This document shows positions 5,261-19,137 of a stretch of DNA of 64,000 nt, in pieces; position 1 is the stretch's first letter, and every line of letters begins with the position of its first letter. The stretch is from a virus. Location of the stretch: IMG/VR virus record IMGVR_UViG_3300027805_000010, positions 1-64,000 of that record; one strand, given 5' to 3'. The notes under the pieces were generated by a model, which was given only the letters and a program-made list of their open reading frames with translations, did not search any database and was not told the origin of the DNA. A program made the translations under genes and the position numbers.

Positions 5261-5333
5261 ACCCTTATAGCTCAACGGTTAGAGCAGGATCCTTATACGA
5301 TCAAGGTTATGGGTTCAAATCCCGTTAAGGGTA
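5261..5333 (+). tRNA. tRNA-Ile (anticodon UAU)
   Basis: Full cloverleaf of 73 nt: acceptor ACCCTTA/TAAGGGT, D arm GCTC/GAGC, anticodon loop CTTATAC giving UAU, T loop TTCAAAT, discriminator A. CCA is not encoded. The first anticodon-stem pair is a G-A mismatch. UAU reads AUA, a codon that is frequent in this A/T-rich genome and poorly served in many hosts. Confidence 0.8.
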
Positions 5334-5377
5334 CTTAAACAATGTACATAATATTCATATAATAATAAACATAAACT

Positions 5378-5575
5378 ATGCGAAAGACTTTATCCTTTTT
5401 AAGAACAAATTTACTTAGCCTTCAGTCGGTTATAATGTGGCTAATGGCAATAGTAAATTTTGGCAATGACACTTTTTGGTTCTTTGCAATTCCAGCAATC
5501 ATTGTTGGTGGTATGCAAGATATCCTTGACGAAATTCGTGAAATAAGAAAAGATGGCAAACCAGAAATTTTTTGA
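5378..5575 (+). CDS. Small membrane protein
   Basis: 65 residues with a basic N-terminus and two predicted membrane segments (about residues 15-30 and 33-48), followed by a charged cytoplasmic tail (EIREIRKDGK). No family recognised. The last 23 bases overlap the next small gene. Confidence 0.5.
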   Translation: MRKTLSFLRTNLLSLQSVIMWLMAIVNFGNDTFWFFAIPAIIVGGMQDILDEIREIRKDGKPEIF

Positions 5576-5729
5576 TGCCGACTTTCATATTGATGAAATC
5601 TTAATGGAAGCCAAAGCATATGGGCTTAGTCGAGAAGTTGATGAATATGCAAAAAAATTCTTAAAAGAAAATCCAGCTTTGGATAAAGTTGAAGCATATC
5701 AATTGGCATATCAAGAATGGATCAAATAA
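5553..5729 (+). CDS. Small acidic helical protein
   Basis: 58-residue open frame that begins inside the previous gene (ATG at 5553) and overlaps the next by 13 bases. The product is mainly helical and charged (DEILMEAKAYGLSREVDEYA). No family recognised. Support comes from tight overlap on both sides and from normal codon use. Confidence 0.55.
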   Translation: MANQKFFDADFHIDEILMEAKAYGLSREVDEYAKKFLKENPALDKVEAYQLAYQEWIK

Positions 5730-5923
5730 ACAATAGAAAATTTCCATGTGACCCAGATCATAACGGAGAATGCTTAGTATGCGACTGTTGGCCGAGTGAT
5801 TGCGCGTTTGATCGTTGGCTTAACAAAGACTATAAGTGGGAGACCGAGGAAGAACTTGACAAAATGTTTAAAGACTACAACAAAAAAGATTATGAAGACT
5901 ATTTACATGGATCAAACAATTAG
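5717..5923 (+). CDS. Small Cys-rich protein
   Basis: 68 residues. The N-terminal half holds Cys residues in CDPDHNGECLVCDCWPSDC, spaced for one metal site; the C-terminal half is a charged helix. This Cys-plus-charged-helix layout is common in small phage zinc proteins that bind host enzymes, but no family was identified. Overlaps the genes on both sides. Confidence 0.55.
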   Translation: MDQINNRKFPCDPDHNGECLVCDCWPSDCAFDRWLNKDYKWETEEELDKMFKDYNKKDYEDYLHGSNN

Positions 5924-6026
5924 GTTAATTGCATCACAGGATCCTGCATATGCGCAAGAATTGATTAAGAGTGGAGTGGTTAAAGAAACCGAAGACAAAT
6001 TACCTTACCTGGTGATTGAAGAATAA
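5907..6026 (+). CDS. Very small hypothetical protein
   Basis: 39 residues from the ATG at 5907, which overlaps the end of the Cys-rich gene; a start at 5892 is also possible. Core text IRLIASQDPAYAQELIKSG is an amphipathic helix. Kept because it fills the gap between two real genes in the same operon and ends 19 nt before thioredoxin. Confidence 0.4.
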   Translation: MDQTIRLIASQDPAYAQELIKSGVVKETEDKLPYLVIEE

Positions 6027-6045
6027 TTAACAAAATTAAACAGTA

Positions 6046-6333
6046 ATGAAAATTGAAGATAAAGCCCTTCTTAAAGAAGGTAAAGTATTGATTGACTTTT
6101 GGGCTCCTTGGTGTGGCCCATGCAAGATGTTAAAACCTATGGTTGAAAAATTCGCGGATGAGAAAGACGACGTTAAGGTTTACTTTTGTAATATAGATGA
6201 AGACTATGAAATGGCTGGCGCATTTAGTGTTAGAAGTATTCCTACACTTGTCTATTTAGAAGACGGCGAAATAAAAGGTCGTAAGGTTGGTGTTGTACCA
6301 CAGAGTGAGATTGAGGAAATGGTAAATTCGTAA
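6046..6333 (+). CDS. Thioredoxin
   Basis: 95 residues, slightly short for the family. Active site WCGPC with Cys23 and Cys26 after the beta strand VLIDFWAP, and the cis-proline segment RSIPTLVY near residue 66. Reduces disulfides in the cytoplasm; phage thioredoxins or host thioredoxin often feed ribonucleotide reductase or serve as polymerase processivity factors. No ribonucleotide reductase lies in this window, so the partner is unknown. Confidence 0.92.
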   Translation: MKIEDKALLKEGKVLIDFWAPWCGPCKMLKPMVEKFADEKDDVKVYFCNIDEDYEMAGAFSVRSIPTLVYLEDGEIKGRKVGVVPQSEIEEMVNS

Positions 6334-6334
6334 T

Positions 6335-6514
6335 ATGAATATCTTTAATATTATAGTTGTCTATCTCTCTATAGGTATTTTATGTGGAATGAGCATAGAA
6401 TCATTGATGGCAGAAACCGATCTTAATGAAAACACTACAAACGTTGAAAGATTCCTTTGGGTTACGTTTTGGCCTATCTTTGTCATCATCTTTTTATTTG
6501 GAATGAAAAAATAA
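6335..6514 (+). CDS. Small two-helix membrane protein
   Basis: 59 residues, starting 2 nt after the thioredoxin stop. Two predicted membrane segments (about residues 3-20 and 40-57) joined by an acidic loop (MAETDLNENTTNVE). Short lysine tail. No family recognised; the topology would fit a small inner-membrane effector. Confidence 0.55.
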   Translation: MNIFNIIVVYLSIGILCGMSIESLMAETDLNENTTNVERFLWVTFWPIFVIIFLFGMKK

Positions 6515-6525
6515 TTTCAAATTAC

Positions 6526-6556
6526 TTTCAGAACCAACAACCACTTGTTATTATTA
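6526..6556 (+). promoter_or_regulatory. Early promoter
   Basis: TTTC at 6526-6529, 19 nt, TATTATTA at 6549-6556. The text TTTCAGAA and ACTTGT is shared with the promoter at 52-82. It lies within the upstream extension of the next open frame and therefore places the true start at 6581. Confidence 0.6.
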
Positions 6557-6580
6557 TTCTATAATCAAATAAAAACAAAT

Positions 6581-6808
6581 ATGAATAAATCTGCTGCTGC
6601 ATTTGCCCTAGGTCTATTATTACTGTTAGGTGCAATCGTTATTGGAATCTTTCTTGCATGGCCAATCCAATGGTTATGGAATAACGCCCTCGTTGGTTCT
6701 GTTAATGGAATCAATCCAATCGGATTTTGGCAGGCATACGGTATCTATATCTTAAGTACCATTATGTTTCGTAGTAATGTAAAAGCTTCATCCAATAACG
6801 ATAAATAA
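6581..6808 (+). CDS. Small membrane protein
   Basis: 75 residues from the ATG at 6581; the longer frame begins inside the promoter. A long hydrophobic segment (residues 5-31) and a second near residues 48-65. No family recognised. Eight bases downstream the tRNA-Leu gene begins, so this gene heads a transcript that continues into the tRNAs. Confidence 0.6.
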   Translation: MNKSAAAFALGLLLLLGAIVIGIFLAWPIQWLWNNALVGSVNGINPIGFWQAYGIYILSTIMFRSNVKASSNNDK

Positions 6809-6816
6809 CAACTGAT

Positions 6817-6905
6817 GGCCAGGTGGTGAAATAGGTAGACACAAGGGACTTAAAATCCCTCGGGCTGAAAAGCCCATGCGGGTTCGATTCCCGCCCTGGC
6901 TACCA
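6817..6905 (+). tRNA. tRNA-Leu (anticodon UAA)
   Basis: Class II tRNA: acceptor GGCCAGG/CCTGGCT, anticodon loop CTTAAAA giving UAA, long variable arm (CGGGCTGAAAAGCCC), T arm GCGGG-TTCGATT-CCCGC, and encoded CCA at 6903-6905. Reads UUA, the favoured Leu codon in A/T-rich phage genes. Confidence 0.92.
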
Positions 6906-6910
6906 CAAAT

Positions 6911-6984
6911 GCCCGTATAGCTCAATTGGATAGAGCAACGCACTTCTAATGCGTAGGTTTCTGGTTCGAATCCAGATATGGGTA
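6911..6984 (+). tRNA. tRNA-Arg (anticodon UCU)
   Basis: Acceptor GCCCGTA/TATGGGT, D arm GCTC/GAGC, anticodon arm ACGCA-CTTCTAA-TGCGT giving UCU, T arm TCTGG-TTCGAAT-CCAGA. CCA is not encoded. Reads AGA, the dominant Arg codon here. It lies 5 nt after the tRNA-Leu CCA. Confidence 0.92.
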
Positions 6985-7007
6985 CTAATTTTAAACAATT
7001 ATATAAC

Positions 7008-7268
7008 ATGGCAAATTTTAAAATCGGAGATCAAGTAAGTTGGGTAAAGAAAATGGCATGTGTGCCTCACCCTGAAGGTAGAACTGACCGCGAAGGTAAT
7101 ATCCTTCCTGTGTTTAGGGATACTGTTGTTAAAGGTAGAATTGTAGAATGGGGTGGAACCAATGCATGGTTCGTTAGACCTGAATTTGCAGAAGCTCATA
7201 AGAATAGAATCTGCGGAGAAAGGTATTATGATATTAAGATTGCTGAGCAAGATATCATTCTAGGATAA
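7008..7268 (+). CDS. Hypothetical protein, 86 residues
   Basis: Start taken at 7008 because the earlier in-frame ATG at 6978 lies inside tRNA-Arg. Predicted beta-rich (FKIGDQVSWVKKM, VVKGRIVEWGGTNAWFVRPE), which looks like an SH3-type barrel of the sort found in small phage regulators. No family recognised. Confidence 0.6.
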   Translation: MANFKIGDQVSWVKKMACVPHPEGRTDREGNILPVFRDTVVKGRIVEWGGTNAWFVRPEFAEAHKNRICGERYYDIKIAEQDIILG

Positions 7269-7277
7269 ATAAAAAGA

Positions 7278-7693
7278 CTGTCGTTCTTTGAAATAAAAAA
7301 AACAAAATTATGGAAACACTTTATTTTACTTTGGGTGTGCTTACGGTTCTGGTTGTACTTGGGGTTGTAGGTATGCTTATGGTTTGGAAAAAAGCTGCTA
7401 ATGCAGCAGAAGAAGCCCACTCCGTTTGGGATGGGATTGATTCATTGGCCGTTGATTTGGCTAAAGAAGCAGAAACTATTCATCGTCGTATAGATGAAGA
7501 ATTAACAAAAGTATCGTATAACTGCGATTCTATTGATAAAAACTTAGACGGTAAGGTTGAAGAAATTTACCGTACATTAGATTCACGTTTAGATAAACTT
7601 GAAAATAAATTAACGAAAATTTTTGAGGATGGGTGTAAACCTGTTCAAGAAAAGTAATATAATAAACAAATAAAAAATAAAGAACGACAGTTT
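7278..7693. repeat. 13-bp inverted repeat flanking one gene
   Basis: ACTGTCGTTCTTT at about 7278-7290 reappears as its reverse complement AAAGAACGACAGT at about 7679-7691. The arms sit just outside the gene at 7310-7657, directly before tRNA-Gly. Perfect arms enclosing a single gene could be a moron boundary, a recombination scar or a long-range RNA stem. Confidence 0.55.
7310..7657 (+). CDS. Membrane-anchored coiled-coil protein
   Basis: 115 residues. One N-terminal membrane segment (residues 4-27) with a short WKK stop-transfer, then a long helical region with heptads (IDSLAVDLAKEAETIHRRID, then LDSRLDKLENKLTKI). The topology resembles small phage inner-membrane spanin-like or DUF948-like proteins. 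It is bracketed by the perfect inverted repeat described separately. Confidence 0.55.
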   Translation: METLYFTLGVLTVLVVLGVVGMLMVWKKAANAAEEAHSVWDGIDSLAVDLAKEAETIHRRIDEELTKVSYNCDSIDKNLDGKVEEIYRTLDSRLDKLENKLTKIFEDGCKPVQEK

Positions 7694-7695
7694 TT

Positions 7696-7767
7696 GCGGA
7701 TATCGTATAAAGGCTATTACTTCAGCCTTCCAAGCTGAAGATGAGGGTTCGATTCCCTCTATCCGCT
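7696..7767 (+). tRNA. tRNA-Gly (anticodon UCC)
   Basis: Acceptor GCGGATA/TATCCGC, anticodon arm TCAGC-CTTCCAA-GCTGA giving UCC, T arm GAGGG-TTCGATT-CCCTC. CCA not encoded. Reads GGA and GGG; GGA is heavily used in the collagen-like Gly-X-Y genes of this phage. Confidence 0.88.
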
Positions 7768-7808
7768 CAATTTGGACACGGGGTCCAAAGGTTAAATTAA
7801 ATAATATC

Positions 7809-9364: not shown

Positions 9365-10198
9365 ATGGTATTACGAAATGGATCAAAGGGTCCTGAGGTT
9401 AAAAAGATTCAGGAAAAACTAGGCGTAGAGCCAACGGGTAATTTTGGCCCGAAAACAGAAGCCGCTGTAAAAGCTTGGCAAAAAGCAAACGGTCTAACCG
9501 ACGATGGTATTGTTGGACCTAACACTTTAACTAAAATGGGAATCAGTGTTTCAGCTGCCCCTACCCCAACCGCTGCACCAGTTGCAATCCCACCTTCTGC
9601 ATTTAAACTTGAAAAATTAAAAGGACATATTCCTGATGCAGTTATTGCTCAAATTCCAGATACAGCTGCAAAGTTTGGTATTACTAATATTTTAAGATTA
9701 GCTCATTTCTTAGCACAGTGTGGTCATGAGAGTGGTGGATTCAAAGCAGTATCAGAAAATCTAAATTATTCAGCTGATGGATTAAAAAAGATTTTCCCTA
9801 AGTACTTCCCTGGTAATCTTAATGAATCATACGCTCGTAATCCTGAAAAGATTGCATCAAGAGTTTATGCATCTCGTATGGGTAACGGAGATGAAGCTTC
9901 TAAAGAAGGTTTCAAATTCCGCGGTCGTGGTTATATTCAATTAACTGGAAAATCAAACTACACAAACTTTGCTAAATTCATTGGCGAAGATACTATTGCT
10001 AATCCTGATTTGGTAGCAACTAAATATCCTTTAGCTTCTGCTGCATTCTTCTTTAACTCAAATAGCCTTTGGTCAATTTGTGATAGAGGTGCTGATGATG
10101 CTACAGTTACATCAGTAACTAAAAGAGTTAACGGTGGTACTATCGGTCTTGCTGATCGTATCAAACATTTCAAAGAATACTACAACTTACTTAAGTAA
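9365..10198 (+). CDS. Endolysin: peptidoglycan-binding plus GH19 domain
   Basis: 277 residues in two domains joined by an Ala/Pro/Thr linker (residues 62-77). Residues 3-58 are a PG_binding_1 domain (GSKGPEVKKIQEKLG, then DGIVGPNTLTKMG). Residues 80-277 are a glycoside hydrolase family 19 lysozyme/chitinase: catalytic Glu122 in CGHESGGF, and FRGRGYIQLTGKSNY. It cleaves the glycan backbone of peptidoglycan at lysis. No signal peptide is visible, so it needs a holin for release. A late-promoter box sits 26 nt upstream. Confidence 0.92.
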   Translation: MVLRNGSKGPEVKKIQEKLGVEPTGNFGPKTEAAVKAWQKANGLTDDGIVGPNTLTKMGISVSAAPTPTAAPVAIPPSAFKLEKLKGHIPDAVIAQIPDTAAKFGITNILRLAHFLAQCGHESGGFKAVSENLNYSADGLKKIFPKYFPGNLNESYARNPEKIASRVYASRMGNGDEASKEGFKFRGRGYIQLTGKSNYTNFAKFIGEDTIANPDLVATKYPLASAAFFFNSNSLWSICDRGADDATVTSVTKRVNGGTIGLADRIKHFKEYYNLLK

Positions 10199-10860: not shown

Positions 10861-12780
10861 ATGAAAACCTTTCTAAAAAAATTGGCCATCTTAATGATGG
10901 TTATGGCGCCCTTTGTTGGGTTTTCCCAAACGGCGCCACCGGCACCAGGTAACGGAGTCTATGCAATTATAGATACCACATATCAGGTAGGTACACATAC
11001 ACAAGGATTCTCTAAAGCAAAAATTACTTTACAGAATACAACCGCTACTCTTATTACTGGTGTACAGTTTAGAGTATTCTATGACAAGAATGCATTCTCA
11101 TCTGCAACACCAACATTATTAGGATCTACATCAAACCTAAACTTACAATACGTAGATAATAATGCAGGTGGCTATTTAACAATCACTCTAGTTTATACAG
11201 GATCCTCTGCCACATATTCAATAGCAAACGGTGAAAAGTTTGAAGTAACATTTAACCACGTTGGTGCTTCTTCATTTTATGCATTATCAACAATCAGTGA
11301 TCTAACTTGGAGTGGTGTTAATACATTTAATCAATTGGCGGCAACTAATCCAGGTTTAGATACAACATTAGCATTACATAGTTATGGTGGTGTATGGGAA
11401 AAACCAGAACTTAATTATCACGGAACATTTACAAATACAACCGGAACTGGTGCTAAAAACTTAACATTAGCTCTAGAGAAAAAAGTTAAAACTGGTTCAA
11501 CTTGGTCTATTCATGATACTTATGTTACAGATATCAATGGTGATTTTGCTTTCACTGAAATTATTGATACTACATATTATGATGTACGTCTGGCAATTAA
11601 AGGTGATACGATGTCTGTGGGTAACGTTATTTCTTCGGCAGATGCTCAATTAATTAATCAATGGGTTTTAGGATCTGCAACCCCTTCAGGTTGGGACTTC
11701 TATACCGCAGATGTTAATGGATCTAACAATATATCAATTACCGATGCTTATGGTGTATTTGGTAGAATTGCTGGTAGATTCAGTGCTTGGCCTAACAGTG
11801 TAAAAGATGTTAAATTCTTTACTGTTGCTGAAAAGAATACAATCACAGGAACACCTACTACTAACTACACATCTACTATTTCAGGTGTAACTAACTTCTA
11901 TCATAATATTCTGCCAGGTCAACCTGATTCAGTTCAATTCTATGTACTAGTCCCTGGTGATGCTAATGGAACAGGATATAATATGGCCCGTGTAACTCCA
12001 ATTGAAGTTGCAATTGATCCGTTACCCGGTACACCTGCCCAACAGGAGAATGTAATTGATACTAAAGTTGAGTATGATTTTCCTACACAGTCAATAGAGG
12101 TTAATGTACCTAGCATTTCTGTTAATGAAGGAAACTTAGTAGAAATTCCAGTGAAGGTTAATACTAATGGAATTAACATTACATCGCTTCAAATGGGGTT
12201 CCTTTACGATGAAGATATCTTAGAATTTAGAGATGTATACAATTCACCAAAATCTATGTTTTGGTTATCATCCGTTAATCCTCTTGACGGAATAGTAGAA
12301 TGGGTTGGATTTGATCCATCTGCTAATAAAGCATATGCAATTGAAGATGGTTATAATATTTTTACATTACGCTTTTTAGCTAAGTCACCACAGAACGAAT
12401 GGGCACAATCTCCTCTTTATACTTCTAGAAAATTTTCAGGTGATTTTAATTCAAAGGACTTAAGTATAAATCCTGCAAACGGAATTCTAGTTGTAGCTAA
12501 AATGGCTGGTGGTTCTGGTTCAATGGAAGAAACTATTAAAGTTTATCCTAACCCAACAACTGGTGATTTTTCGGTTAGCTTTACTGTTAAAGAAGCCGGT
12601 AGAATTAAACTTTTAGTAACCGATATGAATGGCCGTATCATTAATTCAATTTTAGATAAAGATATGCCAATAGGAAAATACGTATACTATTCAAATATTG
12701 AAAATGTATCAACTGGCGTTTACTTTACAACTTTACAATCTCTTACTGAGATTGAATCTTTCAAATTAATAAAAAAATAA
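10861..12780 (+). CDS. Type IX secretion cargo with cohesin-like and dockerin-like modules
   Basis: 639 residues. A signal peptide ends at FVGFSQ, with Gln23 the likely first mature residue. A first cohesin-like beta domain spans about residues 30-150. A dockerin-like pair follows at 257-305 (ISSADAQLINQWVLG, then DVNGSNNISITDAYGVF, a Ca-loop plus helix). A second cohesin-like domain is at about 410-520 (NGINITSLQMGFLYDEDILE). Residues 558-639 form a type A T9SS sorting domain (VYPNPTTGDFSVSF through GVYF to a final KLIKK). This domain sends proteins through the host type IX system to the cell surface. A phage copy is unusual. Confidence 0.88.
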   Translation: MKTFLKKLAILMMVMAPFVGFSQTAPPAPGNGVYAIIDTTYQVGTHTQGFSKAKITLQNTTATLITGVQFRVFYDKNAFSSATPTLLGSTSNLNLQYVDNNAGGYLTITLVYTGSSATYSIANGEKFEVTFNHVGASSFYALSTISDLTWSGVNTFNQLAATNPGLDTTLALHSYGGVWEKPELNYHGTFTNTTGTGAKNLTLALEKKVKTGSTWSIHDTYVTDINGDFAFTEIIDTTYYDVRLAIKGDTMSVGNVISSADAQLINQWVLGSATPSGWDFYTADVNGSNNISITDAYGVFGRIAGRFSAWPNSVKDVKFFTVAEKNTITGTPTTNYTSTISGVTNFYHNILPGQPDSVQFYVLVPGDANGTGYNMARVTPIEVAIDPLPGTPAQQENVIDTKVEYDFPTQSIEVNVPSISVNEGNLVEIPVKVNTNGINITSLQMGFLYDEDILEFRDVYNSPKSMFWLSSVNPLDGIVEWVGFDPSANKAYAIEDGYNIFTLRFLAKSPQNEWAQSPLYTSRKFSGDFNSKDLSINPANGILVVAKMAGGSGSMEETIKVYPNPTTGDFSVSFTVKEAGRIKLLVTDMNGRIINSILDKDMPIGKYVYYSNIENVSTGVYFTTLQSLTEIESFKLIKK

Positions 12781-12786
12781 AAAACA

Positions 12787-13110
12787 ATGTCTGAAGAAAC
12801 AAACAACATGGAAAATGATGGGACATGGTCAGGTCTTAAGAAGACTTTAATTGGTACCATCTCAACTGCAATATTAGCAGGAGGCACCTATCTAACTACT
12901 ACACTATTCGGTGGGGGTGGTGAAGATAAAGAAGAAACTAAAACTGAGCAGGCTGCGCCCGCACCGGTTGTAGTTAATGTTCAACAAAATCAGGAAAATA
13001 CGCAACAGCAAAAATCAGGTGGTACCACTGTGATTAAAGAAAGAGTTGTAGAAAAACCTGTTGAAAAGAAAGAGGAGAAGAAATCAGAATCTGAAGACGC
13101 TCCTTGGTAA
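12787..13110 (+). CDS. Membrane protein with charged low-complexity tail
   Basis: 107 residues. One predicted membrane segment (about residues 20-42, LIGTISTAILAGGTYLTTTL), then a Pro/Glu/Lys/Gln-rich tail (APAPVVVNVQQNQENTQQQ). It begins 6 nt after the T9SS cargo and precedes a holin candidate. It may be a small spanin- or holin-related protein. No family recognised. Confidence 0.5.
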   Translation: MSEETNNMENDGTWSGLKKTLIGTISTAILAGGTYLTTTLFGGGGEDKEETKTEQAAPAPVVVNVQQNQENTQQQKSGGTTVIKERVVEKPVEKKEEKKSESEDAPW

Positions 13111-13130
13111 TAAAAAAAACACAAATAAAC

Positions 13131-13421
13131 ATGGGAACAAAAGTAACTAAAAAACCAAATTTCTTAAAAAGAATGTTCATGGATGATAATGACATCAATG
13201 AAAAATCAGTAGTAGGGTTTGGCGCATTCTTAATGATGGTAGTTTGCCTAGCTGTTGATATTTACACCGGATTCCAAGGCAAAGAAATGCCAATCAATGA
13301 ATTCGTATTTGATGGCTTTATGGTTATTACATTAGGCGCATTTGGAATTGCTTCGGTTGATAAATTCATTACCACTAAACATGGTAAAAAAGAAGAGTCA
13401 ACTGAGGAATACATTGACTAA
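13131..13421 (+). CDS. Holin candidate, two membrane segments
   Basis: 96 residues from the ATG at 13131; the frame extends 27 bases upstream without a better leader. A basic N-terminus (GTKVTKKPNFLKRMF), membrane segments at about residues 32-50 and 62-82, and a charged C-terminal tail fit class II holin topology. It lies 3 kb after the endolysin in the same direction. The function is inferred from size, topology and position. Confidence 0.5.
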   Translation: MGTKVTKKPNFLKRMFMDDNDINEKSVVGFGAFLMMVVCLAVDIYTGFQGKEMPINEFVFDGFMVITLGAFGIASVDKFITTKHGKKEESTEEYID

Positions 13422-13436
13422 AAATAGAAATTAGAA

Positions 13437-14156
13437 ATGAAGAATTTACTAACAACATTAGTATTAATTCTCACAACACAGATTGGTATTGCTCAGGTCG
13501 GAACTATTAAGACCGAGCAATATCAAGCTGAGTTTGAAAAGAAGCAATCTATAGATGCTTTACCTGAATATACTGATACTATTCAAATACCAATACAAAT
13601 TCTTAAGATAGGAATTAACGAGGATCTATATGAAATGTATCCTGAATTAAAAGACAAAAGAGTTGGTCTTGGTGTAACAAATATTGTTTTGGAATACCTA
13701 GAGTATACTAACCGCTTTGTGTTTACGGAGGATAAGCTTGAAATTAAAGAAAGAATGGTTCAACAGTTTAAGGCATCGGATAAAGGCTTCACTGAAAACA
13801 AAGTAGATGGTAGAGGTAAAATTAAACTCGCCAAGTATTTTGTTTATATTGAAGTTTATGACTTTTCGGTTTCCGAAGATGAGGTTATTAAAATAAACGG
13901 TGAATCAAAAACTACACAAGTTACAAGACTGGGTTTACAGGTTAGATTTGTTGATGCAGAGACAGGCGAAATTCTTATGGGATCTGGTTTAGGTGAAGCA
14001 ACAACAGTAAAGACGGTTTCTATTCTTGATGGTGTAGATGACACAGAAATCAAGTTTAATCAAAGTACGATAGGAATTACAACTAAGAAAGCCCTAGAAA
14101 CGGCTTCATCAAGAATTGTTTCTAGGATGATCAAAAAAGGAATTTTTAAATCATAA
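13437..14156 (+). CDS. CsgG-like curli-type secretion channel protein
   Basis: 239 residues. Signal peptide ending GIAQ, Gln20 likely first. The mature part has the CsgG order: a nucleotide-binding-like alpha/beta start (VGLGVTNIVLEYLEYTNRFV), the strand YFVYIEVYDFSVS, then TTQVTRLGLQVRFVDAETGE, and a C-terminal helix with ALETASSRIVSRM. CsgG forms an outer-membrane pore for curli subunits in proteobacteria, and Bacteroidota have relatives. Unlike E. coli CsgG it lacks a lipobox Cys. It abuts the next gene with no gap. A truncated relative is at 17326-17778. Confidence 0.65.
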   Translation: MKNLLTTLVLILTTQIGIAQVGTIKTEQYQAEFEKKQSIDALPEYTDTIQIPIQILKIGINEDLYEMYPELKDKRVGLGVTNIVLEYLEYTNRFVFTEDKLEIKERMVQQFKASDKGFTENKVDGRGKIKLAKYFVYIEVYDFSVSEDEVIKINGESKTTQVTRLGLQVRFVDAETGEILMGSGLGEATTVKTVSILDGVDDTEIKFNQSTIGITTKKALETASSRIVSRMIKKGIFKS

Positions 14157-15656
14157 ATGTATCGTAAACAGATCATACTTACACTAATATTTTGGATTCT
14201 TTCTATATCAGCATATTCTCAGATTAGCTATTCATATACAGATCCATGTACAGGAGCTATTAAAACATTACAAGTTCCATCAAGCGGTGTGACTGTTACT
14301 TACTATGGGCAGGTAAATACTTTTCAACCTGCCGATTTTTATAATGGTGGTTTTGAAAGTTGGGCACAAGGTGTATTTGGGTCATTTGGAAATAATAATC
14401 CATGTGCATCAATTGTCGGCCTTCCTGCCGCGATAAATGTTGCCCAAAATACTGCAATTAATTTCTTAGGAACAATAAACACAATTTCAAGTCTATCTAG
14501 CTTAAGCAGTATAGGTGGATCATCAAACCTAATTTCAGGAGCTGTTAATAGTACACAAAATTCAACTAGTAACAGTAAGAAAGATAAATCAACCCAAGGT
14601 GGTAATGGAGGGGCATCAAATGGAAACACTTCTACGAATAACCAGAATACTAATGCAAATGGGAACACCAATGGGGGAGGCACTGGCCAAGGCCAAACAA
14701 ATGCTGGCTCCAATGGAAGTACCGGAAGTACTGGAAGTACCGAAGGCGGCACAAGCGGATCAGGCACAAGCGGATCAGGCACAAGTGGATCAGGTACAAG
14801 TGGATCAGGTACAAGTGGATCAGGTACAAGTGGATCAGGCACAAGTGGATCAGGCACAAGTGGATCAGGTACAAGTGGATCAGGCACCGAAGGTGGAACA
14901 AACACAACAAGCGAACCACCAGGGACCGAGGAAGGTGGTAAAACAAATCTTGTAGGATCATCTGTAAATTCAGTACAAAATTCAACGTCGGGTGGGAATC
15001 CTAGTAACAAAAATGGAAACCGTCCTACTGTTTTGGCAAGTTCGGATTTTGTTGGTTTCCAATTTCAGAATTCAGATGTAGCAGTAGGTGGCAAATTTAC
15101 CGGTGGTTATGCATCAATGAGATGGGACGGTGCAAGATCCTGGGGTATTAACATGGATTATACTACTGCATTAAGAGGTCCTAATATTACCGGCTATTAT
15201 GCCTTTATGAAACCAAAACGAATAGATCTTATATCAGTAACAGGTACAATAGGATTTGAGGCTCAACCTACGTTATACAGTACATTATCAGTTGGGCAGA
15301 TGTGGAGTTTAAATAAACCAAAGAATATGAAATTGGTTTATATGTTAACTGGTTCATTTGGTCAGGTTTACGGAGCTGACTTTATTGGTACTGCAGCTAT
15401 TGCTGGTGGTATGTATGATTTTAAAATAACTAATAGATTTGACTTTAAGGTATTAATGCTTTATGTTTATGCACCTTATGTTAGCTATTATAATGATATA
15501 TTACTTAAATCCCCTCATGTAGTGTTACCTATTATTGGTACTAATATTAATTTGACAAAGAGGTTTAAACTTAATATAAACACAGGTGGTGCATGGGCAG
15601 TAAAAGATGCTGCGCTTAACTACACCATTATGTTAGGAACTAGAATGTTATTATGA
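14157..15656 (+). CDS. Repeat-linked outer-membrane beta-barrel protein
   Basis: 499 residues. Signal peptide ending SAYSQ (Gln22). An N-terminal domain with paired Cys (DPCTG, NNPCAS), then a long Asn/Gly/Ser linker including nine tandem SGSGT units (residues 200-244), then a C-terminal region from about residue 285 of alternating strands ending in LGTRMLL with the aromatic-rich pattern of an outer-membrane barrel. Two copies of SVNSVQNST-like text bracket the linker. It starts right after the CsgG-like gene and overlaps the lectin gene. A surface display role is likely. Confidence 0.6.
   Translation: MYRKQIILTLIFWILSISAYSQISYSYTDPCTGAIKTLQVPSSGVTVTYYGQVNTFQPADFYNGGFESWAQGVFGSFGNNNPCASIVGLPAAINVAQNTAINFLGTINTISSLSSLSSIGGSSNLISGAVNSTQNSTSNSKKDKSTQGGNGGASNGNTSTNNQNTNANGNTNGGGTGQGQTNAGSNGSTGSTGSTEGGTSGSGTSGSGTSGSGTSGSGTSGSGTSGSGTSGSGTSGSGTSGSGTEGGTNTTSEPPGTEEGGKTNLVGSSVNSVQNSTSGGNPSNKNGNRPTVLASSDFVGFQFQNSDVAVGGKFTGGYASMRWDGARSWGINMDYTTALRGPNITGYYAFMKPKRIDLISVTGTIGFEAQPTLYSTLSVGQMWSLNKPKNMKLVYMLTGSFGQVYGADFIGTAAIAGGMYDFKITNRFDFKVLMLYVYAPYVSYYNDILLKSPHVVLPIIGTNINLTKRFKLNINTGGAWAVKDAALNYTIMLGTRMLL
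14754..14888 (+). repeat. Nine tandem 15-bp repeats
   Basis: Nine copies of AGYGGATCAGGYACA, each encoding Ser-Gly-Ser-Gly-Thr, with only silent C/T differences between copies. Low divergence suggests recent expansion and a copy number that may vary between isolates. Confidence 0.85.
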
Positions 15657-17326
15657 TTAGAAGATTTCTTTTTATCCTATTGGTTTTTGTTTCAACGATA
15701 ACCAATGCTCAAACATTTACACACTCAGGTTATATTCGTAATGCTGATGGGAGTGGTGCGATTAATGTACCTGTTAAACTATATAAGAGAACAACACCTA
15801 CATTAACAGGATTCACTTCACAAACCAATTACAACGGTCACTCTTATTACCGCTCAACTGGGTCTATGACTTGGACATCAGCAAAAACTGCATGTGAGAA
15901 TATGGGAGGCCACCTTGCTACAGTATCAAATGTAGCTGAAAACAATTTTCTTTTTAATACATGGCCTTCGGGTTGGATTGGTTATTACCAAGATAGAGTT
16001 GCTGGTTACACTTATTCAGAACCACTTGGTGGATACCGCTGGACTGAAACTCAAGTAACCACAAATCTTCAAGCTGACTACGATGTTTCTTCTTATTCAG
16101 CTGGCTCAACTTTATCAGACATTAAAAGTTCTATTCATGCAACTTTATACAATTCACCTGCGTATTCAAGCACAGGTGGTAAATACTTAGCATTTAACGG
16201 TTCTAACCAATATGCAATAACTAGCAATCTAGCTTCAAGATTTTCTTCAACAGCAATATCAGTGGTTGCCTGGGTTTACCCAACAGGAAATGGCGTAATT
16301 GCATCTGAATTAAACATTCAAAGTCCATCATCCAGTTGGCATGAATCAATCATGGAAATCACAGGATCAAATACTTTAAGGGTTGGTTTTTGGAATGGCA
16401 TAGGTATTACTCAATTAAGTACTGCTATTACACTCAATACATGGAACATGGTTTGTATTACTTATGACGGTACCACAATGAGAGGATATTTGAATAATGT
16501 TAGTTTTGGAAGTATAAACTTTTCTCGCCAAGCAGCATTTATACATGGAGGAAACGGGCAACAACATTTTGCTTTTGGTTTACAAGATGCTACCAACATG
16601 GGTCATGGTGGGTATGGTGCTTTTAGATTAGGCGACATTCAATTCTTTGATAGAGCTATTACTTTAGACGAAATAGACAGAACGTTTAACCTTTATGCTT
16701 ATAGGTACAGAACAAATCAATATGCCAACTGGAATCCGGGCGAACCAAATAACTCAGGTAACGAAGACTACACACAATTTGTAGGTGGAGGTAAGTGGAA
16801 CGATTTGGCAAATTCATCGTTACCCTATGTAATTGAATTTGATTATGTGGTTACATTTACTCCTTGGGTTCTTCATCAGACTGTCTATACCAATTCATCC
16901 GGCTATTATTCATTTTCGCAATCAACAAATCCTGCCACAGAATGGTACATACAAATAGATGCAGTTGATCCTATTACAAATTTACAACTATCCGATATGA
17001 TTGGGGCAAGCGATGTTATACTTGGAAAGACTCCAAAAAAATCTATACATTGGGTTCAATATGATTTAAACGGCGACGGCGATATTACAATATCTGATGT
17101 TTACCATATTAATTATAGAAAGAATGGTTATGCAATAAATTGGGTAGGTACTTTTAAATCAAGAATATTTACAACATCACAATACACATCTTTAATAAAT
17201 GGTACAACGGACATTAGATCATCTATACCTGGTGTATCTTCAATAACCATAAATTCACCTGTTAGTGGTGGTACCTCAAATTACTATTTACTTTCACCAG
17301 GATATAAAACACAAGTTACATACTAA
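15653..17326 (+). CDS. Secreted C-type lectin split by a LamG domain, with dockerin-like end
   Basis: 557 residues. Signal peptide ending TITNAQ (Gln20). The first half of a C-type lectin fold is at about residues 58-120 (SAKTACENMGGHLATVSNVA). A LamG/concanavalin-like domain follows at about 170-345 (GKYLAFNGSNQYA through LGDIQFFDRAITLDEI). The lectin fold then resumes with YANWNPGEPNN and GKWNDLAN, giving the EPN and WND sugar/calcium motifs. A dockerin-like repeat YDLNGDGDITISDVY lies near 470. Its C-terminal 120 residues match a module in the T9SS cargo gene. It probably binds glycans at the cell surface. Confidence 0.75.
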   Translation: MIRRFLFILLVFVSTITNAQTFTHSGYIRNADGSGAINVPVKLYKRTTPTLTGFTSQTNYNGHSYYRSTGSMTWTSAKTACENMGGHLATVSNVAENNFLFNTWPSGWIGYYQDRVAGYTYSEPLGGYRWTETQVTTNLQADYDVSSYSAGSTLSDIKSSIHATLYNSPAYSSTGGKYLAFNGSNQYAITSNLASRFSSTAISVVAWVYPTGNGVIASELNIQSPSSSWHESIMEITGSNTLRVGFWNGIGITQLSTAITLNTWNMVCITYDGTTMRGYLNNVSFGSINFSRQAAFIHGGNGQQHFAFGLQDATNMGHGGYGAFRLGDIQFFDRAITLDEIDRTFNLYAYRYRTNQYANWNPGEPNNSGNEDYTQFVGGGKWNDLANSSLPYVIEFDYVVTFTPWVLHQTVYTNSSGYYSFSQSTNPATEWYIQIDAVDPITNLQLSDMIGASDVILGKTPKKSIHWVQYDLNGDGDITISDVYHINYRKNGYAINWVGTFKSRIFTTSQYTSLINGTTDIRSSIPGVSSITINSPVSGGTSNYYLLSPGYKTQVTY

Positions 17327-17778
17327 TGAAAAATTTAATACTTACTATTTTATTCTTAATTCCACTATTTGGGTTTTCACAGGAATGTATCACAGTTGAT
17401 TCAATATATTCAACTGCTAAGCTAAGAGAATTAGGAAACCGAGATATTCGCTTTGGAATTAAACAGATGGCAGAAGAACTTCTATCAGAGAAATATTGTT
17501 TATCAGAACAAGGTCAGGATCTTGACATTGAAGTTTTTTATTTTGGTATCCCTAAAACCACAATAAGAATTGTAGGTGTTGAAAAAACAAATCAAGTTAC
17601 TCAAGTAGGTGTAAGAATATATCACAACGGTAATAAATATGAAGGCTTTGGGGAATCAGAAACGGAGGTAAGGGCCGTTATGATTGAACTTGTAGATGGA
17701 AAGGTACCATTTTCTAAAATGACAGTTTCCAATGCATTAAAAAAAGCTATCATCGAATGTATTTCAAAAATGCCATAA
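17326..17778 (+). CDS. Short CsgG-related secreted protein
   Basis: 150 residues. Signal peptide ending FGFSQ (Gln19). Residues 64-150 align by eye with the C-terminal half of the CsgG-like protein at 13437: DIEVFYF against YIEVYDF, KTNQVTQVGVRIY against KTTQVTRLGLQVR, and a final ALKKAIIECI against ALETASSRIV. It therefore seems a shortened paralogue without the N-terminal nucleotide-binding-like half. It begins at the last base of the lectin stop and overlaps the zincin gene by 22 bases. Confidence 0.6.
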   Translation: MKNLILTILFLIPLFGFSQECITVDSIYSTAKLRELGNRDIRFGIKQMAEELLSEKYCLSEQGQDLDIEVFYFGIPKTTIRIVGVEKTNQVTQVGVRIYHNGNKYEGFGESETEVRAVMIELVDGKVPFSKMTVSNALKKAIIECISKMP

Positions 17779-18212
17779 CCTGTATTTTATTTGCAGTTCC
17801 TTCTTTAGTGTTTTCACAAATTAAAATTGATGATGTTGGTGATGGGTGGAAGTCTAAAGTTGACTCTGCAATTGTCCTTATTAAAAATACGGATCCTGAA
17901 AAGTATCAGGTTTTAATCAATAATTGTGAAAGAGTTGAATTCATAATAGGTGATCATTCCACAACACTACCACCTAAGACTATAGTTATAACGGTTAAAG
18001 ATGTTCAGCATCCATCCATTAATAACATTGCAGCAATTCTTGTACATGAATCTTTTCATTTAAAGATATGGAATGCTAATGTAAAGCTAACACCAAAGGA
18101 AGAAGAGAAGGCTGCTTATACATGGGAATATGACTTCTTATGTAAACTTCCACAAGTTGAAGATTGGCTATTCTTAAATGCAGTCAATAATATTATTAAG
18201 TATAGTAATTAA
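17757..18212 (+). CDS. Secreted zincin-like metalloprotease
   Basis: 151 residues. Signal peptide ending LVFSQ (Gln21). The zinc motif HESFH (His97, Glu98, His101) lies in a helix after IAAILV, and an acidic helix follows (EEEKAAYTWEYDF) that could provide the third Glu ligand. It is short for a full protease, so it is either a minimal zincin or needs a partner. Last gene of the exported-protein cassette. Possible roles are maturation of the cassette or cleavage of host surface proteins; neither is shown. Confidence 0.6.
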   Translation: MYFKNAITCILFAVPSLVFSQIKIDDVGDGWKSKVDSAIVLIKNTDPEKYQVLINNCERVEFIIGDHSTTLPPKTIVITVKDVQHPSINNIAAILVHESFHLKIWNANVKLTPKEEEKAAYTWEYDFLCKLPQVEDWLFLNAVNNIIKYSN

Positions 18213-18276: not shown

Positions 18277-18732
18277 ATGAAGAAACTTACTGTTATTTTT
18301 GATCTTGATGGTACTTTGGCAATCATCGACAAACGTCGACTGTTAGCCGCCAAACCAGATGGAAAGATTCATTGGGGAAAATTCTTTGATCCACAAAACA
18401 TTCAATTAGACGAACCTAACACTCCTGTTATTACGGCGTTCAAGGCATTGAAAGACCAAGGATACCGTGTAGGTATTTTTTCAGGCAGGGATTCAATTTC
18501 TCGTACAGAAACCGAACAGTGGTTATCTGATAATGGAATCCATCCAGACTTCTTACGTATGAGACCTCAACGATCTTACACCAAAGATGATATCCTAAAG
18601 AAACAATGGTTGGATGAAGAATTGGAAATGGGTCACGAAATCTTATGTACATTTGATGATCGTGATAAAGTAGTAAAAATGTGGAGAGACAACGGAATCG
18701 TTTGTTTTCAAGTAGCACCTGGAGATTTTTAA
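18277..18732 (+). CDS. Pnk-type 3'-phosphatase (HAD domain)
   Basis: 151 residues. HAD motif FDLDGTLA with Asp9 and Asp11, the FSGR motif II, and motif TFDDRDKVVKMWRDNG followed by CFQVAPGDF, which is the closing signature of the T4 polynucleotide kinase phosphatase domain. It removes 3' phosphates from broken DNA or RNA ends. In T4 this domain is the C-terminal half of one protein; here it is a separate gene, followed 3 nt later by the kinase. The promoter lies 21 nt upstream. Confidence 0.88.
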   Translation: MKKLTVIFDLDGTLAIIDKRRLLAAKPDGKIHWGKFFDPQNIQLDEPNTPVITAFKALKDQGYRVGIFSGRDSISRTETEQWLSDNGIHPDFLRMRPQRSYTKDDILKKQWLDEELEMGHEILCTFDDRDKVVKMWRDNGIVCFQVAPGDF

Positions 18733-18735
18733 ATT

Positions 18736-19137
18736 ATGAAAGAGTTATTTTTATTAAGAGGTTTACCTGGTAGTGGTAAATCAACATTGGCAAAATCATT
18801 AGGTGGATTTCACGTTGAAGCTGATATGTATTTTATGAAAGACGGTAGTTATATCTTTGATGGATCTAAACTAAAGGATGCCCATCAATGGTGCCATGAC
18901 GAAGTTAATACTGCAATGATACTAAATCATACTACCGGCGAAAACAAAAGAATCATAGTATCAAATACATTTACACAGGAATGGGAAATGAAAGCATACT
19001 ACGATTTGGCTAAAGAATGGGACTATAAAGTATTTTCGCTGGTGGTTGAAAATCGTCATAACGGTGTAAATGAACATGGCGTACCTGATGAAGCCTTAAC
19101 TAGAATGAAAGATCGTTTTGAATTTAAACTTATTTAA
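18736..19137 (+). CDS. P-loop kinase, Pnk-type 5'-kinase
   Basis: 133 residues. Walker A GLPGSGKST (Lys15), an acidic residue in VEADMYF after the next strand, and ALTRMKDRFE near the end, the Arg-bearing lid region of Pnk-like kinases. It should phosphorylate 5'-OH ends. It is adjacent to the phosphatase, so the two halves of Pnk are encoded separately and in reverse order to the T4 fusion. Some other small nucleotide kinases share this fold. Confidence 0.75.
   Translation: MKELFLLRGLPGSGKSTLAKSLGGFHVEADMYFMKDGSYIFDGSKLKDAHQWCHDEVNTAMILNHTTGENKRIIVSNTFTQEWEMKAYYDLAKEWDYKVFSLVVENRHNGVNEHGVPDEALTRMKDRFEFKLI

Follow-up and report, generated by a model that had tools for sequence, protein, structure and literature searches.

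The closest described precedent for the locus examined here is Cryophage, a 76-kb Bacteroidota phage that encodes three type A T9SS cargo proteins and for which hijacking of the host system has been proposed (Bellas 2020; PMC7468147). The suggestions made by its authors include superinfection exclusion, and the paper contains no mention of cohesin, lectin or curli (PMC7468147). We identified a gene that likewise encodes a type A T9SS sorting domain in a 64,000-nucleotide stretch of viral DNA, referred to here as the window, which belongs to a 78,609-base IMG/VR virus record (positions 1 to 64,000 of IMGVR_UViG_3300027805_000010). However, the cargo of Cryophage, by its published description, consists of variable endoglucanase, GH39 and PA14 genes, whereas the gene in the window encodes one conserved, putative cohesin scaffold and belongs to an operon that is nearly invariant among large T4-like phages.

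The only cultured relative that we found is Flavobacterium phage immuto (vB_FspM_immuto, Immutovirus). Genes 13-19 of immuto similarly encode a lectin, cohesin and sorting-domain parts, a small protein, a CsgG-like protein (61.5% identical), a barrel and a short CsgG-like protein, and are annotated just as hypothetical, cohesin or lectin proteins. Unlike in the window, the scaffold of immuto is divided between two exported proteins and the lectin gene lies upstream.

Two cellular systems also bear a resemblance to the locus. The cellulosome (CipA, ScaB) carries cohesins on a surface-bound scaffold and an X-module with a dockerin on the partner protein. In contrast, the phage set is virus-encoded, is without catalytic enzymes and has a predicted T9SS anchor instead of SLH or sortase, with binding predicted from sequence. 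The CsgG curli channel (type VIII) resembles the predicted fold of one operon protein, and a lipobox-like cysteine occurs in many relatives of that protein; however, the copy in the window lacks this cysteine and has no significant sequence match to CsgG. None of CsgA, CsgB, CsgE or CsgF was recognised among the scanned operon proteins, and a literature search found no link to curli or jumbo phages. Phage-encoded T9SS cargo has been known since 2020, and what appears provisionally to be new is the context: the type of cargo, its conservation and the accompanying cohesin, dockerin and CsgG-like set. We found no published description of such a set in a search that was thin on subscription journals and preprints.

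A conserved T9SS sorting domain

The gene at 10861..12780 (plus strand, as are all features described below) starts with ATG and encodes a protein of 639 amino acids with above cut-off matches to TIGR04183, PF18962 and PF00963. The original prediction had read this open reading frame as encoding a signal peptide and a type A T9SS sorting domain. Both are seen, the signal peptide by eye, and the sequence excerpts given with that prediction are correct. The protein begins with a hydrophobic helix (residues 2-19 in the AF2 model) followed by FSQ-T, and its N-terminus looks like a Bacteroidota-type signal peptide of approximately residues 1-23 (MKTFLKKLAILMMVMAPFVGFSQ, 10861..10929). Residue Q23 is invariant in the alignment of homologues.

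The sorting domain occupies residues 561-639 (12541..12777), so that its end agrees with the earlier assignment and its start does not, having been placed at residue 558. TIGR04183 matches the complete protein significantly (E 1.6e-7), scoring 31.2 bits where the curated cut-off is 23, and the isolated C-terminal piece scores 37 bits with this model. PF18962 matches with 37 bits against a cut-off of 27. It is the one such domain in the whole virus record (genome-level E 2.4e-10), and the profile also fits PDB chain 8glj_D, a Por sorting domain. Among related records the domain exceeds the TIGR04183 cut-off in 15 of 15 and 17 of 17, that is, in all 32 scanned, and PF18962 matches 24/24 homologues. 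A PNP pattern is found in every distinct complete C-terminus examined, with the exception of the N-terminal half of the immuto protein, which is split. The sorting domain is under purifying selection, with a median dN/dS of approximately 0.12 over 151 pairs (0.06-0.08 for the cohesin and dockerin parts over the same number of pairs). Given its retention in 32 records and in 24/24 homologues, together with this selection, the domain is real and beyond what chance would produce. The T9SS address, as read from these profile matches, is strongly supported and is the best-supported part of the case.

SprA and PorV were sought in eight phage records and were absent, so export must rely on the T9SS of the host. 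Both proteins are present in the two MAGs into which phage copies of the cassette had been binned. We consider it likely that the protein reaches the outside of the infected cell by this route. Second, unrelated proteins with T9SS sorting domains and signal peptides (190 and 284 amino acids) occur in some related contigs (L054, G009:C1:73612-73791; L180, G014:C291:133094-133330), which indicates that T9SS cargo there is not confined to the scaffold.

Cohesin-like and dockerin-like domains

Between the signal peptide and the sorting domain, the T9SS protein consists of two cohesin-like domains flanking a middle module. PF00963 (cohesin) matches the protein with 41.6 bits against a cut-off of 24.1 and is found in 23/24 homologues. 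The second domain (12094..12441; match at residues 412-513) exceeds the cut-off, and the first (11017..11301) is weaker, with an E of 6.5e-5 that falls below the cut-off on its own and a pLDDT of about 70 for the corresponding block of the AF2 model. The middle module (residues 185-394, 11413..12042) combines Ig-like, dockerin-like and beta parts. It matches the dockerin chain PDB 4uyp_B with an E of 0.001, while PF00404 (dockerin) reaches 18.9 bits, under its cut-off of 22.9. Of the two Ca-binding F-hand repeats that define a dockerin, the first has a degenerate loop, and one canonical loop is present. A Foldseek search with the AF2 model, a low-confidence one (mean pLDDT 51, dockerin region mostly below 35), pointed to cellulosome cohesins and scaffoldins.

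The equivalent protein of immuto is split (L002:11598-13422). Gene 14 encodes a signal peptide followed by cohesin, Ig, dockerin and beta parts, and gene 15 encodes a signal peptide followed by a cohesin and the sorting domain. The split falls at the junction of dockerin and cohesin, and the second half has a signal peptide of its own, an arrangement that fits the expectation for separable scaffold pieces. Cohesin-like and dockerin-like domains are frequent in Bacteroidota proteins, often without a demonstrated partner, and this counts against reading the protein as a scaffold. The original prediction did not see the cohesins, the dockerin or the CsgG-like proteins, which are more surprising than the T9SS tag.

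A lectin with a shared C-terminal module

The operon protein encoded at 15653..17326 is a modular lectin with a signal peptide, C-type lectin (PF00059, 34 bits) and laminin-G-like (PF13385, 47.9 bits) domains, and a C-terminal Ig-dockerin-beta module. The last 175 amino acids, an X-dockerin-like module with the loop DLNGDGDITISD (16799..17323), are homologous to the middle module of the T9SS protein (hhalign E 2.4e-27). This region matches the X-dockerin of CipA (PDB 2b59_B, E 0.0014) as well as 3kcp and 5g5d, and an F-hand-like motif is present in 29/29 lectin homologues.

The C-terminus is conserved among the relatives and the N-terminus is variable. C-type lectin domains are found in 19/29 homologues and laminin-G-like domains in 10/29, with GEVED, Ig_7 and pentaxin domains in others. 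The lectin is arranged like a plug-in system, with a predicted docking end that is fixed and a binding end that can be swapped. We considered a diversity-generating retroelement as the source of the variability and rejected it, as no reverse transcriptase was present in the 15 records searched; ordinary recombination is the likely cause. No T9SS tag was found in the lectin proteins, which we count against the model of a scaffold and its lectin.

CsgG-like, barrel and small proteins

The gene at 13437..14156 encodes an exported protein of 239 amino acids with a predicted CsgG-like fold. When its AF2 model, which is only moderately confident (pLDDT 59), was compared with the PDB by Foldseek, the first 23 hits were all CsgG, the best with an E of 1.1e-7. 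By sequence there was no Pfam CsgG hit and no PDB hmmsearch hit, and hhalign of the family against the E. coli CsgG sequence, verified against PDB entries, was weak. Because the fold match is unaccompanied by a significant sequence match, we call the protein CsgG-like and not a member of the CsgG family. A short paralogue of 150 amino acids with a signal peptide is encoded at 17326..17778 (hhalign to the 13437 family, E 4.7e-9).

The product of 14157..15656 has a signal peptide, an N-terminal domain, a linker rich in Gly, Ser, Thr and Asn, and a strand-rich C-terminal domain. From this sequence pattern, namely the strand-rich C-terminus and the low-complexity linker, it is probably an outer-membrane beta-barrel. 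The linker contains a regular GSGTS repeat at 14650-14985, and its length and composition (G/S, N/T or S-rich) differ strongly among relatives. The remaining proteins are one of 107 amino acids with one hydrophobic segment and a charged tail (12787..13110), one of 105 amino acids with two hydrophobic segments (13104..13421), holin-like by eye and without a family match or a match in PHROG, and one of 151 amino acids with a signal peptide (17757..18212). A search of PHROGs with the operon proteins gave no convincing family. One related contig (L176:11513-12334) has an additional exported, strand-rich, barrel-like protein of 273 amino acids between the lectin and the short CsgG-like gene.

Conservation and distribution of the operon

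The genes from 10861 to 18212 are nearly gapless in the window, with gaps of 0-15 bases or overlaps. Their order is the T9SS protein, the small protein or proteins, the CsgG-like protein, the outer-membrane barrel, the lectin and the second CsgG-like protein. Counting loci with sufficient flank, a homologue of the 107-aa protein lies downstream of the T9SS gene in 79/79, the CsgG-like gene in 61/61, the barrel gene in 56/57, the lectin gene in 53/54, the short CsgG-like gene in 51/51 and the gene for the 151-aa protein in 47/49. A homologue of the 105-aa protein is found in 30/72. In the reciprocal count, anchored on the CsgG-like gene, all 69 of 69 loci have the T9SS gene upstream. No enrichment was seen for the Bacteroidota promoter motif TTTG-N-TANNTTTG, of which no instance was close to the operon, and a scan for sigma-70 promoters did no better than shuffles.

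Homologues of the T9SS protein were found on 36 virus contigs by sequence and on at least 127 by profile, on contigs of up to 291 kb. We also looked for chromosomal homologues of the scaffold with the profile and found none in 84,980 bacterial and archaeal genomes. The gene is a core viral gene, in agreement with the earlier view that it does not lie in a host-like island. For the CsgG-like gene, at least 503 relatives were found in viruses, on contigs of up to 343 kb. In the genome collection it has only two matches, both on MAG contigs (254 kb and 12.6 kb; L176, L177), from uncultured Bacteroidetes and Flavobacterium sp., that also carry related cassette genes and an endolysin. These two contigs are probably phage DNA binned with bacterial genomes. 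The operon is a virus-specific set in large T4-like phages of aquatic Bacteroidota.

The phage represented by the window encodes a T4-like baseplate and an ATP-dependent ligase, and its tail fibres are collagen-like. The region 5261-7768 holds four tRNA genes (Ile-TAT, Leu-TAA, Arg-TCT and Gly-TCC), and at 18277-19137 a HAD-like phosphatase stands beside a P-loop kinase ORF, resembling by eye a split polynucleotide kinase/phosphatase. The 25-70 kb region of immuto (L190) contains the queuosine/7-deazaguanine DNA modification genes QueD, QueE, FolE, QueF and DpdA (QueC is in L002), as well as GroEL/ES and a run of glycosyltransferases.

Proposed function and alternatives

We propose that the operon encodes a cohesin scaffold that is exported by the host T9SS and displays dockerin-borne lectins on the infected cell, a reading that we hold with moderate confidence. 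The scaffold would be exported by Sec during infection, and its type A sorting domain would be recognised by the host T9SS (SprA/PorV), which would bring it across the outer membrane and anchor it on the outside. Its cohesins would then offer docking sites, and the X-dockerin-like module of the lectin would most likely dock on them, in cis or between molecules. The binding domains of the lectin (C-type lectin, laminin-G/pentraxin, GEVED or Ig) would be exchangeable, and the CsgG-like and barrel proteins may help the lectin or other parts to cross the outer membrane. The outcome would be an infected cell coated in a lectin layer of the phage's choosing, most likely for superinfection exclusion, or for adhesion to neighbouring cells or surfaces. 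The parts of this model read directly from sequence are the signal peptides, the sorting domain, the cohesin, the shared dockerin-like module, the conservation of the operon and the lack of T9SS machinery in the phage; the CsgG-like fold is a prediction.

The individual steps differ in strength. Co-occurrence and homology make docking of the lectin on the scaffold plausible, with roughly even chances, while participation of the CsgG-like and barrel proteins in the outward passage of the lectin is doubtful. Taken singly, superinfection exclusion is a possible but tentative purpose and adhesion a rather unlikely one. In F. columnare, mutations in gld and spr (T9SS/gliding) genes accompany phage resistance (PMC9233685), and in Cellulophaga T9SS adhesins are suspected as phage receptors (PMC13288928). 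Altered T9SS-exported surface proteins could therefore plausibly block later phages. A fuller version, in which the virus encodes a cellulosome-like apparatus (T9SS-exported cohesin scaffold, dockerin-borne lectins and a phage CsgG-like export route) that controls attachment to the infected cell, is speculative, although we take it seriously.

In the simplest alternative, the T9SS protein is exported and anchored by the host T9SS and works by itself, coating the surface or masking receptors; its cohesin-like and dockerin-like domains are structural beta-sandwich or spacer modules, and its operon partners have separate envelope roles. In favour of this, the T9SS address is the firmest part of the case, cohesin-like domains occur widely in the surface proteins of Bacteroidota, and the dockerin scores are weak. 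However, the Ig-dockerin-beta module recurs in the lectin of the same operon, the operon is strictly conserved, and in immuto the cohesin and sorting-domain part is a protein distinct from the dockerin part, with a signal peptide to itself. We consider this explanation unlikely, if far from negligible. Decoration of the virus particle, with the exported proteins binding released virions outside the cell, draws on the lectin and Ig-like folds found on phage particles and on the collagen-like tail fibres of the window phage. It is quite improbable, since the signal peptides and the T9SS anchor place the main operon proteins in the cell envelope and not in the cytoplasm where virions assemble.

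The original prediction placed the gene among lysis genes, and in the window an endolysin (PG-binding and GH19; 9365..10198; PHROG 181, E 9e-67) does lie two genes upstream, outside the conserved operon. The linkage is not kept across relatives. Only 34 of 68 loci have an endolysin in the 3 kb upstream of the T9SS gene. In most relatives the endolysin is either divergently transcribed, as in most loci read individually, or located elsewhere. Immuto has its endolysin orthologue (62.6% identical) and a holin at 43.7-44.7 kb, approximately 30 kb from the cassette at 10.5-16.4 kb, which adjoins ribonucleotide reductase genes. The lysis context is thus incidental, and the genes conserved beside the T9SS gene code for signal-peptide-bearing envelope proteins and not for lysis functions. 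These observations make it improbable that the operon is an accessory cassette for lysis or outer-membrane disruption, a spanin substitute in which the CsgG-like proteins and the barrel make holes in the outer membrane at the time of lysis, assisted by the T9SS protein and the lectin. The small hydrophobic proteins of 107 and 105 amino acids would suit such a cassette, but a surface sorting tag and lectin domains are of no use in lysis. Least credible, and very improbable, is a moron recently taken from a Flavobacterium chromosome to the benefit of the host and not the phage. All of the domains are typical of Bacteroidota secreted proteins, and Cryophage has variable host-like T9SS enzymes (PMC7468147). 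Against such an origin, profile patterns of the T9SS protein have no relative in the 84,980 bacterial and archaeal genomes, both genome hits of the neighbouring gene are on contigs that carry the same cassette with the endolysin, and the cassette is conserved in contigs of up to 343 kb.

With the exported cohesin scaffold and its lectins as the preferred reading, a one-off remark on phage T9SS cargo becomes a conserved viral operon in hundreds of virus contigs, and functions can be proposed for proteins so far annotated mostly as hypothetical. The cultured pair of immuto and Flavobacterium sp. LMO8 makes the operon testable. The host secretion system that would be used is itself tied to phage resistance. 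If this reading is true, large phages of aquatic Bacteroidota would use the secretion system of their host to give the infected cell a new outer surface built on a modular lectin scaffold.
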